Below, piece by piece: positions 21,407 through 24,100 of a DNA stretch of 45,101 bases. Below the pieces are notes generated by a model. The model saw only the letters and a program-made list of their open reading frames with translations. It ran no database searches and was not told the origin of the DNA. Source of the DNA: Planctomycetes bacterium HGW-Planctomycetes-1. GTDB taxonomy: Bacteria; Planctomycetota; Phycisphaerae; Sedimentisphaerales; UBA12454. Location of the stretch: contig PGYD01000006.1 of the NCBI GenBank assembly GCA_002839495.1, positions 1 through 45,101 of the forward strand, written 5' to 3'. The stretch's first letter is position 1. Every line of letters starts with the position of its first letter. The translations under genes were made by a program, and so were the position numbers.

Positions 21407-22168
21407 TTACGCTCTCATATAAAGTCCGCCGTTGACGGCTATGTATTCGCCCGTGATAAAGCCTGCCGCATCGCTTGCGAGAAACAGTATCGCTTTTGCG
21501 ACATCTTCTGCCCTGCCGTTTCGGCCCAGCGGCGTCTCTTTGGCGACCGCTGCTCTTCGTTCAGCAGTGCTGAACTGCTCGTGAAAACGAGTCTCTATCA
21601 GACCGGGCATTACGGAATTAACCCTGATTCCGAATGGTGCGAATTCCTTCGCCATCGCGATTGTCATCGTCGCCACCGCCGCTTTTGCAGAGGCGTAAAT
21701 TCCGCCGCCGCCCGCCCCGCCGTTATGACCCGCAATAGAACCGATATTTACTATACAGCCTTTTGTCTTCTTTAGTTCTTCTAACGCCGCCTGCGATACG
21801 AGAAATGCGTTTTTTACATTTGTCGCAAAGGCGTCATCGAAATATTCTTCCGTTGCATCGGCAAAAAACTGTCTCGCTATTAATGAACCGGCGTTATTTA
21901 CAAGTACGTCGATACCGCCCGCCTGTTTGACAAAATCTTCGAGTAGTTTTACCACTTGTTTTTTATCTCTCATATCGGCTTTGAGCAGACAGCCGTCGGA
22001 GATTTTATTTACTTCATCGAAAGTCTCTTTGCCTCCCGATTCTGTCCTGAAGTAATGAACGCCGACGAAACAGCCCTGCAGAGCGAACATCTTCGCCGTC
22101 GCAGCCCCGATTCCGCTGGACGAGCCGGTAACCAAAACCTTTTTGCCTTTTAAATCTTCATAAATCAT
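21407..22168 (-). CDS. Short-chain dehydrogenase/reductase (FabG-like)
   Basis: A 253-residue classical SDR. The dinucleotide-binding motif is VTGSSSGIGAATAKMF (TGxxxGxG). NNAG is present in VLVNNAGSL. The catalytic serine lies in IVNIGSIAGHNG, and the YxxxK motif is IYASAKAAVATM. The C-terminus SDAAGFITGEYIAVNGGLYMRA is typical of FabG-like enzymes. It reduces or oxidises a keto/hydroxy group with NAD(P)(H). The substrate is unknown, and membership of the fatty-acid cycle is not supported by neighbours, since there are no acp, fabF or fabD genes. The sequence upstream is the REPIN at 22188-22237, only 20 bp from the start codon. Confidence 0.9.
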   Translation of the reverse strand: MIYEDLKGKKVLVTGSSSGIGAATAKMFALQGCFVGVHYFRTESGGKETFDEVNKISDGCLLKADMRDKKQVVKLLEDFVKQAGGIDVLVNNAGSLIARQFFADATEEYFDDAFATNVKNAFLVSQAALEELKKTKGCIVNIGSIAGHNGGAGGGGIYASAKAAVATMTIAMAKEFAPFGIRVNSVMPGLIETRFHEQFSTAERRAAVAKETPLGRNGRAEDVAKAILFLASDAAGFITGEYIAVNGGLYMRA

Positions 22169-22187: not shown

Positions 22188-22237
22188 TTAGCCCGCCGTT
22201 TTACGGCGGGTTAACCCCCGGTAAAACCGGGGGCTAA
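22188..22237. repeat. REPIN-like inverted pair of REP palindromes
   Basis: Two 27-bp palindromic units in inverted orientation share a central TTAA (22211-22214). Unit A (22188-22214) is TTAGCCC-GCCG-TTTTA-CGGC-GGGTTAA. Unit B, read on the minus strand (22237-22211), is TTAGCCC-CCGG-TTTTA-CCGG-GGGTTAA. Flanks and loop are identical, while the inner four stem bases differ on both sides so that pairing is kept. The pair lies beside the RAYT gene, as expected for REPs mobilised by such transposases. Confidence 0.85.
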
Positions 22238-22253
22238 TTATTTAACTACTAAA

Positions 22254-22703
22254 TCATAAAAAGAATTGTGCTATCAAGCTGATGAAACTTAATAGAATGG
22301 ATATAACTGCAAAAATAATTGCAAGTTGAAAATATCGGTCTGGATGCCAGTAAATAGAAAACAATCTGAACAGGCAACAATTATGTCCATAATCAATTTC
22401 AAAATCATAATTCTCACCGGATTTTAAGTTGCCAAGTTTTTTTCGATAATATTCAGAAATAATAATTGCTTTATTTTGTTCTCGAATCTTATTTGTATGG
22501 TGCCTGTCATTATAATAGTTAATGTAATTATCATCTAATACCCTGCACTCACAGTAAACCTTTTTTTGGGTTGATGTGCATTGCACCTTAATACAATCTC
22601 CAGAGTTTACCTTGTCGTCATTTGGTATCCAAATGCAGGGGTCTCTTGCTTCCTCGTGTAGAGCCACAAAAACTTTATATTTATTTGTTGTGGTTTTGCA
22701 CAT
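22254..22703 (-). CDS. Hypothetical C-terminally membrane-anchored protein in the RAYT unit
   Basis: Not recognised. 149 aa, AT-rich compared with its neighbours. Residues 1-110 look like a mixed beta domain with several cysteines and histidines (KVFVALHEEARDPCIWIP, QCTSTQKKVYCECRVLDD, EYYRKKLGNLKSGENYDFEI). Residues about 127-149 form one hydrophobic helix (LAIIFAVISILLSFISLIAQFFL, split here as LAIIFAVISILLS and FISLIAQFFL), giving a tail-anchored topology. The ATG lies 22 bp inside the 3' end of the RAYT gene, and the stop lies 16 bp from the REPIN. It could be a cargo or resident gene caught between REP elements. The different composition suggests recent acquisition (inference). Confidence 0.6.
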   Translation of the reverse strand: MCKTTTNKYKVFVALHEEARDPCIWIPNDDKVNSGDCIKVQCTSTQKKVYCECRVLDDNYINYYNDRHHTNKIREQNKAIIISEYYRKKLGNLKSGENYDFEIDYGHNCCLFRLFSIYWHPDRYFQLAIIFAVISILLSFISLIAQFFL

Positions 22704-23130
22704 ATCTTATTCTTCGCTCTAAAGTTTCTTTATCAAAACAAAATCTTTTGTCGCAACCTGCCGTCCATACTTTACCATCGCAACCAACGGTTTTCAAGGC
22801 AAGACGAGCGGCACTTTTATAATAGGCCACAATTTTGGCAATCGGCTGAGGGACATACTCGGCAACAACGTGAATATGATTGGATTTCACCGCTAAAGCA
22901 TATATTTGCTGCTTAAGCAGTTCCGCTTGTTTCGTTATCGCCTGCCGGACAATTTCTCGTTGAGGTTTCGACAGTTTGACCATATCTTGTACCTGTAATT
23001 TTTGATTTGCCTGCAATAGTGCTTCATTGGCAGGAAGAATTTTCCCGTCTTTTACATAACGGCGTTCATCCCCCTGCAGCCACGTGCCGTAAGTTGTCCA
23101 CGTTATATGATAACCCAACGTCTTCGCCAT
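22681..23130 (-). CDS. REP-associated tyrosine transposase (RAYT, IS200-like Y1 HUH family)
   Basis: A 149-residue single-domain transposase. N-terminal LGYHITWTTYGTWLQGDERRYV is the classic RAYT opening. The HUH metal site is HIHVV in VKSNHIHVVAEYVPQ. The candidate nucleophilic tyrosine is in IVAYYKSAARLALKTVG. The C-terminus WTAGCDKRFCFDKETLERRIRYVQNH is also typical. RAYTs nick and join single-stranded REP hairpins and are normally single-copy domesticated genes that disperse REPs. Both flanks here carry REP palindromes of one family (22188-22237 and 23136-23181), and its start codon is 5 bp from the right-hand block. It appears intact. Confidence 0.93.
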   Translation of the reverse strand: MAKTLGYHITWTTYGTWLQGDERRYVKDGKILPANEALLQANQKLQVQDMVKLSKPQREIVRQAITKQAELLKQQIYALAVKSNHIHVVAEYVPQPIAKIVAYYKSAARLALKTVGCDGKVWTAGCDKRFCFDKETLERRIRYVQNHNK

Positions 23131-23135
23131 AATAT

Positions 23136-23181
23136 TTAGCCCGCCGTTTTATATTTAGCCCCCAGTTTTACTGGGGGTTAT
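23136..23181 (+). repeat. Truncated plus complete REP palindrome upstream of RAYT
   Basis: A half unit (23136-23151: TTAGCCC-GCCG-TTTTA, lacking its right arm) is followed by a complete unit (23155-23181: TTAGCCC-CCAG-TTTTA-CTGG-GGGTTAT). Both are preceded by the same ATAT. The complete unit has the same loop and outer arms as the REPIN at 22188 but a third, self-complementary stem variant (CCAG/CTGG). Its loop TTTTA supplies the rmuC stop codon (TAA on the minus strand). Confidence 0.85.
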
Positions 23182-24100
23182 CCTTATCCTGTATTTGTTC
23201 TAATTGCATTACAAGTTTATCAAGTTTTTTCTGGCCTTCCTCGTGTTTGGAATGTGCATTTCGCAGATGTCCGCCAAGGGTATCCCATAATGAAACAAAA
23301 TCTGCGAATGAAACATTGAGAGTTTTAAGATTTTTGCGTATTTCGGCGGCCTGTTTTTCGATTTGCATACCGTGAAGACCCATTACGATTGTCATAAGAT
23401 AAATATAAAGCAGGTTCGGCGAAACAGGAAAGACCTTTTTCCCGAACGCGTAATCCTGAATGCTGATGGTATCTTCCGCTGTTTTTACCATTGCCTCATA
23501 ATAAACATTTTCGGCCGGAATATACATAATCGCAAAATCCAGCGTCCCCTCGTCAGGCTTGATATAGCTTTCAGCTATTTTATCTATATGTTTTTGTACG
23601 TCTCTTAGAAATTCCTTATGGAGTTTTTGCTTCTCGGCGTCGCTTTGCGACTGTTGGAGCTTTTCAAAATTGCTCAATGGAAATTTTGCGTCAATCGGAA
23701 CTGAATACTGCGGCATCTTTACCAGCGCATCGACTTTTTTGCCGTCGCGGAAACCATATTGCAAAACGAAACTGTCCGCAGGAAGCACCGCTGACAAAAT
23801 CTTCTCGAGCGACCATTCGCCAAGTCCGCCCCGCAGTTTCGGACTGGCAAGGATTTGCTGAAGACTTTTTAAATCCGAACTCAAGTCCACTATCCTCTTG
23901 CCGGTCTCCTGAAGCCTGACAAGCTCGGCATTTACCTCTTTTAATGTCTGGGCTTGAGACTGAAGATTTTTATCGATGGTATTTTGCAGACCGGCGGACA
24001 AATCTTCCTGTGCCTTCTGTGAACGAATAGTCAGCCACAAAAGGAACGCTATCACCCCCAAAACCGCTACTATTAGAATTACTATAAGTGCCTCTGTCAT
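23168..24100 (-). CDS. rmuC: RmuC family DNA recombination protein
   Basis: A 310-residue protein with an N-terminal membrane helix (residues 4-24), a coiled-coil segment (QKAQEDLSAGLQNTIDKNLQ to about residue 80) and the RmuC nuclease-like domain: LASPKLRGGLGEWSLEKILS, VLQYGFRDGKKVDALVKMPQ, VPIDAKFPLSNFEKL and FAIMYIPAENVYYEAM. Family knowledge: RmuC limits inversion at short inverted repeats in E. coli and is thought to be a PD-(D/E)XK-like nuclease. The last four codons and stop (DNPQ-stop) are formed by a REP palindrome, so the original C-terminus was probably altered by REP insertion. Confidence 0.92.
   Translation of the reverse strand: MTEALIVILIVAVLGVIAFLLWLTIRSQKAQEDLSAGLQNTIDKNLQSQAQTLKEVNAELVRLQETGKRIVDLSSDLKSLQQILASPKLRGGLGEWSLEKILSAVLPADSFVLQYGFRDGKKVDALVKMPQYSVPIDAKFPLSNFEKLQQSQSDAEKQKLHKEFLRDVQKHIDKIAESYIKPDEGTLDFAIMYIPAENVYYEAMVKTAEDTISIQDYAFGKKVFPVSPNLLYIYLMTIVMGLHGMQIEKQAAEIRKNLKTLNVSFADFVSLWDTLGGHLRNAHSKHEEGQKKLDKLVMQLEQIQDKDNPQ

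Follow-up and report, generated by a model that had tools for sequence, protein, structure and literature searches.

A REPtron-like unit in a planctomycete: a RAYT-like Y1 HUH transposase gene bracketed by its probable substrate hairpins

Introduction

In the genome of Planctomycetes bacterium HGW-Planctomycetes-1, a small transposase gene lies between rmuC and a gene of the SDR family, enclosed by short hairpins that resemble each other. The question raised by this locus is whether gene and hairpins form one system, as RAYT transposases and their REP sequences do, or whether the hairpins are the ends of an ordinary insertion sequence or unrelated elements alike by chance. The window analyzed here is the whole 45,101-nucleotide stretch of contig PGYD01000006.1; the genome to which it belongs (G000) is a MAG of 1.83 Mb, 94% complete. 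We think, with a probability of about 0.8, that the locus is a REPtron-like unit, that is, a gene for a RAYT-like endonuclease of the Y1 HUH type that stands between the hairpins on which its product acts, further copies of these hairpins being dispersed in the genome.

The hairpins around the transposase gene

The unit comprises the following features.

22188..22213, + strand: REP-like hairpin, stem CCCGCCGT/ACGGCGGG, loop TTT (TTTTA motif); pattern and ssDNA fold
22212..22237, − strand: REP-like hairpin, stem CCCCCGGT/ACCGGGGG, in a tail-to-tail inverted pair with the 22188..22213 copy
22681..23130, − strand: Y1 HUH transposase, RAYT-like, nearest to TnpAY1 "class 3"; intact ORF of 149 aa
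23136..23151, + strand: broken half hairpin, TTAGCCCGCCGTTTTA only, 3' arm missing; identified by sequence, without a fold of its own
23155..23180, + strand: REP-like hairpin, stem CCCCCAGT/ACTGGGGG, upstream of the transposase start; pattern and ssDNA fold

An earlier note on this DNA had described an intact Y1 HUH transposase flanked by palindromes of one family, and this description stands: the reading frame is intact and the motif TTAGCCC-N4-TTTTA-N4-GGGTTA is matched exactly three times, at 22188-22213 (+), 22212-22237 (−) and 23155-23180 (+), against a chance expectation of 0.04 in shuffles with three mismatches permitted. The inner stems of the three intact hairpins are GCCG/CGGC, CCGG/CCGG and CCAG/CTGG, with complete pairing in all of them, and ssDNA folding of each gives −9 to −12 kcal/mol (z of about −3.7 to −4). 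The left block is the true inverted pair that the note had seen; its two hairpins have the bases GGGTTAACCC in common and fold separately, not with each other. The flanks and loop, which had been called invariant, are so only in part. Foot and loop are conserved, but the last base varies (the right hairpin ends in TTAT instead of TTAA, and elsewhere in G000 T, C or G is found as well), and the loop is either TTTTA or TTTCA. The rmuC stop codon (23168-23170) falls within the right hairpin, ahead of the start of the transposase gene, where termination of rmuC could be coupled with translation of the transposase.

The transposase and its family

The key residues of the protein are H85-I-H87, K105, W122, the catalytic Y143 and H147, the latter at position Y+4. 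In an alignment of 52 homologues H85, H87, K105, W122, G125 and Y143 are invariant, residue 84 is N in 45, V or I stands between the two histidines in 50, and the residue after W122 is T (39), S (8) or A (4). Y+4 is a histidine in 48 of the 52. By their spacing from the catalytic tyrosine, we presume that Q131 of IS608 and N119 of TnpAREP occupy this same position. The two residues compared in this way with Y+4 are taken from published work (PMC6006769). An AlphaFold2 model (pLDDT 87.9) predicts a Y1 fold, the comparison of which gives Z values of about 14 with the IS608, ISDra2 and archaeal IS200 transposases, and 10.9 with TnpAREP 4er8 across residues 2-149. Judging from this model and the alignment, the fold and the catalytic residues are those of Y1 HUH transposases. 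Family models are less clear-cut: PF01797 gives 22.4 bits, slightly below its cut-off of 23, the NCBIfam RAYT model NF047646 gives 23.8 bits for a cut-off of 80, and the curated NCBIfam IS200/IS605 transposase model 22.5 bits for a cut-off of 55, so the protein fails both NCBIfam models. Thus, the RAYT identity proposed in the earlier note holds insofar as this is a Y1 HUH enzyme with cognate dispersed hairpins, but the protein misses the RAYT cut-off and is nearer to class 3 TnpAY1.

The latter class was defined on 24 planctomycete and acidobacterial sequences with atypical hairpins, which were regarded as possible intermediates between IS200 and REPtrons (Quentin et al. 2018, PMC6006769). 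It shares with our family the planctomycete hosts, the NH[IV]H and W[TA] motifs, the YV motif and the hairpin-flanked genes. It differs in the tyrosine motif, YV[VI][AENY]EQ there and with H at Y+4 here (48/52), and in the foot of the hairpin, reported as CnGA there and TTAG here. Since NH[IV]H and W[TA] are shared but YVxxH and the TTAG foot are not, the transposase family is likely a sister group of class 3 rather than a member. Three homologues (L048-L050) with 33-36% identity to the transposase carry the YVxxxQ motif, and distant homologues of this YVxxxQ kind in the phylum have hairpins of shared loop and differing paired stems. The genome G000 contains three other homologues of the transposase, at 32-43% identity, and only one close copy.

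A dispersed family of hairpins with paired stems

The motif is not limited to the locus. G000 has more copies of the hairpin on eight other contigs (C14, C65, C72, C85, C90, C93, C116 and C145), and a search of 96 genomes with a pattern that leaves the stem unconstrained, TTAGCC-N5-TTTYA-N5-GGTT, found copies in 31 of them, with a maximum of 45 per genome, whereas the reversed pattern used as control gave near zero matches. As the copies were counted by pattern, decayed ones may be missed. Among 265 copies from 19 genomes the five free stem positions are perfectly paired in 222; when the 3' arms were re-dealt among the copies, a mean of 26 and a maximum of 41 in 1000 trials were perfect. With G-T pairs allowed the number rises to 240, 18 of the 265 depending on G-T. 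The preservation of pairing with changed sequence that the note had proposed is therefore well borne out, and an uncompensated drift of the stems is not what is found. A comparable pattern gave 11 matches in 2.9 million viral contigs, only one of them fully paired, and so pairing is no by-product of the search pattern. Shuffles, the reversed control, the re-dealing of arms and the viral contigs together rule out a chance origin of the family. No plasmid match was found and, with a single paired match in the viral contigs, a phage or plasmid origin was rejected.

The stem itself is less free than it was thought to be. The inner stem does vary, with GCCG, CCGG and CCAG seen at the locus, but the fourth N is almost invariant (a G-C pair in 244/265). 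Nine types of 5' arm make up 83% of the 265 copies and recur across genomes and genera, which does not support a stem "free to drift"; the loop is TTTTA in 161 copies and TTTCA in 104. An origin compatible with the REPtron-like reading is that a few fixed hairpin subtypes have spread and replaced each other by gene conversion or insertion, instead of each stem being counter-mutated in place. To this origin we give an even chance. The nine recurring types speak for it, and so does a REPIN of the same composition in three genomes (G048, G091 and G096), CCTGCGG with CCCCACG, while single-mismatch and G-T intermediates are present (the 18 G-T copies mentioned above) and flanking hairpins at orthologous positions are not the same from genus to genus; both of the latter may, though, reflect decay.

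The doublet is a minor form in these genomes. Counting singlets and inverted pairs, as the note had proposed, gave 11 close inverted pairs among the 265 copies (22 hairpins), with singlets predominating; the count used the strict pattern, by which decayed partners are missed. The definition of a REPIN, two close inverted REPs, describes the block at 22188-22237, but not the main genomic form, and the name "REPIN system" is not supported. Stems are equal in none of the 11 inverted and in 6 of 10 direct close pairs (Fisher p 0.004), although close pairs are not independent and a hand estimate from stem frequencies predicts about 3 equal pairs among the 11; a rule by which inverted pairs avoid equal stems is thus a suggestion. 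The REPIN recurring in G048, G091 and G096 has its tags facing across a 4-bp gap, CTAAATATTTAG. Its layout is that of the transposase unit without the gene, which suggests that these pairs arose from the unit by deletion.

Could the hairpins be ordinary transcription terminators, or RNA elements, with a chance resemblance to each other? Seven of the eight non-local copies checked are intergenic, and one hairpin of the window with its T-rich tail scores as terminator-like. This is, however, the only such site against a shuffle mean of 1.6, so that there is no excess; no Rfam family matches the hairpins; foot, loop and GGTT tail are kept regardless of T tracts; the loop tracks the transposase clade, as described below; and one copy lies in frame within cas1. 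Terminators and Rfam families were accordingly rejected as the identity of the hairpins, and we consider this explanation highly improbable.

The cas1 copy is the hairpin CCGCCGGT-TTT-ACCGGCGG (L013:1500-1526, contig C93 of G000), near the N-terminus, and the alignment of the product to solved Cas1 chains begins 15-16 residues later than in the chains. On contig C145 (L163, 1730-2022), three hairpins of three loop classes stand on one strand in less than 300 bp, which is a cluster of different REP systems.

Loop, stem and transposase lineage

About 60 full-length transposases within the order were collected as a homologue set, and most of them have TTAG hairpins near the gene ends. Among the 31 with hairpins on both sides, the tags face the gene in 29 on the 5' side and in 24 on the 3' side. 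The two loops are the same in 17 of these homologues and in 11 more show transitions as their sole differences, compared with 2.4 and 3.5, respectively, for shuffled hairpin partners, whereas the stems on the two sides match in 7. On the transposase tree, the loop state requires 21 changes, where 500 shuffles require 28-36; for the stem the figures are 35 and 36-41, none of the 500 reaching the observed count. The loop is thus tied to transposase phylogeny more closely than the stem. Stem types also follow the tree somewhat, and so they keep a weak trace of descent and part of their conservation is inheritance. The seven-member clade of the window's transposase (support 98) has TTY loops only, with GT/AC as the closing bases; the loops of the other clades are CCYG, ACCYGTG, TTTAT, CACY or TCY. 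No earlier report of this loop-by-clade correspondence was found in the open-licence literature.

The abundance of the hairpins also goes with the gene. The median number of TTTYA hairpins is 16 in genomes that carry a TTTYA-clade transposase, 1 in those with other clades and 0 in those with none (p 6e-5 and 3e-9, values that are descriptive because the 96 genomes are phylogenetically non-independent). The corresponding figures are 15, 1 and 0 for ACCYGTG hairpins and 13.5, 0 and 0 for CCYG hairpins, for which the association across genomes is weakest. One genome (G011) has 25 CCYG-loop hairpins and no intact transposase of the CCYG clade; it does contain a homologue (L147), which carries a stop codon. 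Overall, the association of motif and transposase is strong, but some genomes without a detected cognate gene carry TTTYA hairpins (20 in G010, 12 in G003 and 10 in G060), which has to be explained by loss of the gene, by gaps in the MAGs or by a different enzyme.

It is tempting to think that in this one order each lineage of a fast-diversifying, class-3-like Y1 nuclease has a private loop code (TTTYA, TTTAT, CCYG, ACCYGTG, CACY or TCY) on a shared TTAG foot, by which several REP systems would coexist in a genome without cross-talk, and that stems differ within inverted pairs so that neighbors do not pair. We put this forward tentatively, with the odds somewhat against it.

The insertion junction

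The unit stands between two genes, in the order rmuC-[unit]-SDR, and contains one more reading frame.

21407..22168, − strand: SDR-family gene (PF13561), one neighbor of the junction
22254..22703, − strand: orphan ORF of 149 aa, hydrophobic over a C-terminal segment; lies between the left hairpin pair and the transposase
23168..24100, − strand: rmuC (PF02646, synteny), upstream neighbor of the insertion junction

The junction is polymorphic. In five genomes (G001, G002, G003, G004 and G012) rmuC abuts the SDR gene without any hairpin, in G010 a solo hairpin is present, and the full unit, with the transposase between hairpins, occupies the junction in G000, G009 and G096, the last of which belongs to another family. 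Either the unit is old and its loss frequent, a solo hairpin having stayed behind in one case, or the junction has been entered repeatedly; a similar spacer follows the final hairpin in G000, G009 and G010, which favors loss in G010. The transposase locus looks long-lived and mostly single-copy per clade, which need not point to present-day activity. In G007, a transposase unit (L196) lies beside rmuC and is itself flanked by a direct repeat of some 30 bp; the SDR gene was not found beside it. The gap between purL and purQ has a single hairpin in G000 that is absent in G001, G002, G004, G005, G010 and G011. The purQ frame of G000 (L007:1551-2426, contig C90) is about 50 residues longer than its relatives, and the additional residues are similar to numerous short segments of G009; probably another repeat family is read through in them.

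A hairpin-bounded unit at a junction that is empty in relatives also fits an ordinary IS200/IS605 element, of which the subterminal hairpins would be the left and right ends and the dispersed ones remnants of decayed whole elements. The fold nearest to the protein is that of IS608 and ISDra2, with which catalytic residues and loop base contacts are also shared, and in some homologues (L025, L108, L116 and L043) the hairpins on the two sides are directly repeated and agree in their stems fully or almost fully, as ends of an IS would. We nevertheless find this explanation improbable. In the 24 of 31 homologues with tags toward the gene on the 3' side, the 3' hairpin is inverted relative to the usual 5' one, and the stems are mostly different; the protein lacks a family-level match to the IS200 model; each genome has one close transposase copy against 11-45 hairpins, without recent copies of the whole unit; and the same rmuC/SDR junction is occupied in two families.

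The orphan ORF lies inside the hairpin-bounded unit and overlaps the 3' end of the transposase by about 20 bases. It is missing from the orthologous unit of G009, and no relatives were found in the 96 genomes, Pfam, PHROGs or viral contigs. With these results and a single sub-threshold match in NCBIfam, it was rejected as a recognized cargo.

Comparison with known REP systems and proposed mechanism

The REPtron-like reading is best appreciated next to the RAYT/TnpAREP class 2 REPtrons of E. coli, Stenotrophomonas and Marinomonas (PMC6006769, PMC8266576). Common to both are the Y1 HUH core with a single tyrosine, hairpins flanking the gene at either end, copies scattered over the genome, the occurrence of inverted pairs, a four-base foot ending in TAG and the presence of several systems in one genome, each using a hairpin of its own. 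The class 2 systems differ in their foot (GT[AG]G there, TTAG in the window and its clade), in the NF047646 score given above, in the motifs W-Q/E and Y-x-x-N-P against W-T and Y-x-x-x-H here, and in that here singlets dominate and the stems of one system span many types. The novelty that the earlier note saw in a system mostly described in gammaproteobacteria does not hold, as both REPs and class 3 TnpAY1 have already been reported in planctomycetes (PMC3733652; PMC6006769). The former source describes, for GTAG REP families, sub-families with paired stem changes, that is, alternative complementary stems, as well as heterodimers and planctomycete occurrence, all of which our family resembles; the foot is GTAG there and, as far as the available text goes, the loop is not tied to transposase phylogeny.

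For group 3 TnpAREP, in vitro work has already shown that specific loop bases and a paired stem are needed while many stem changes are tolerated, which is a precedent for reading loop and foot with a merely paired stem; for the Marinomonas enzyme the loop rule is TTNA, with the third base free, and GTAG guides cleavage (PMC8266576). This rule is mirrored by natural variation in the TTTYA family, in which T-T-Y-A is fixed except for the third base and the stem is paired and variable. By analogy, we infer a similar mode of recognition, with TTAG as guide. The protein would act on one DNA strand while it is single-stranded, reading the TTAG foot and the TTTYA loop; of the stem it would require good pairing over about 8 bp, with little regard to the sequence. 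Binding would be followed by cleavage near the foot, at a predicted CT dinucleotide, since A3G4 of TTAG are the same as in GTAG. The hairpins would then be moved or copied to new sites by the protein, which may be how the transposase made the dispersed copies.

Significance

What is known of how RAYTs choose their hairpins and how REP specificity changes comes from a few proteobacterial enzymes. In this order some 60 enzymes are naturally paired with hairpins whose stems vary widely on a fixed loop and foot, which makes them an evolutionary counterpart of a SELEX experiment. This set predicts which bases matter and gives matched pairs of enzymes for loop swaps. Moreover, it places REPtrons in a group that lies between IS200 transposases and classical RAYTs.
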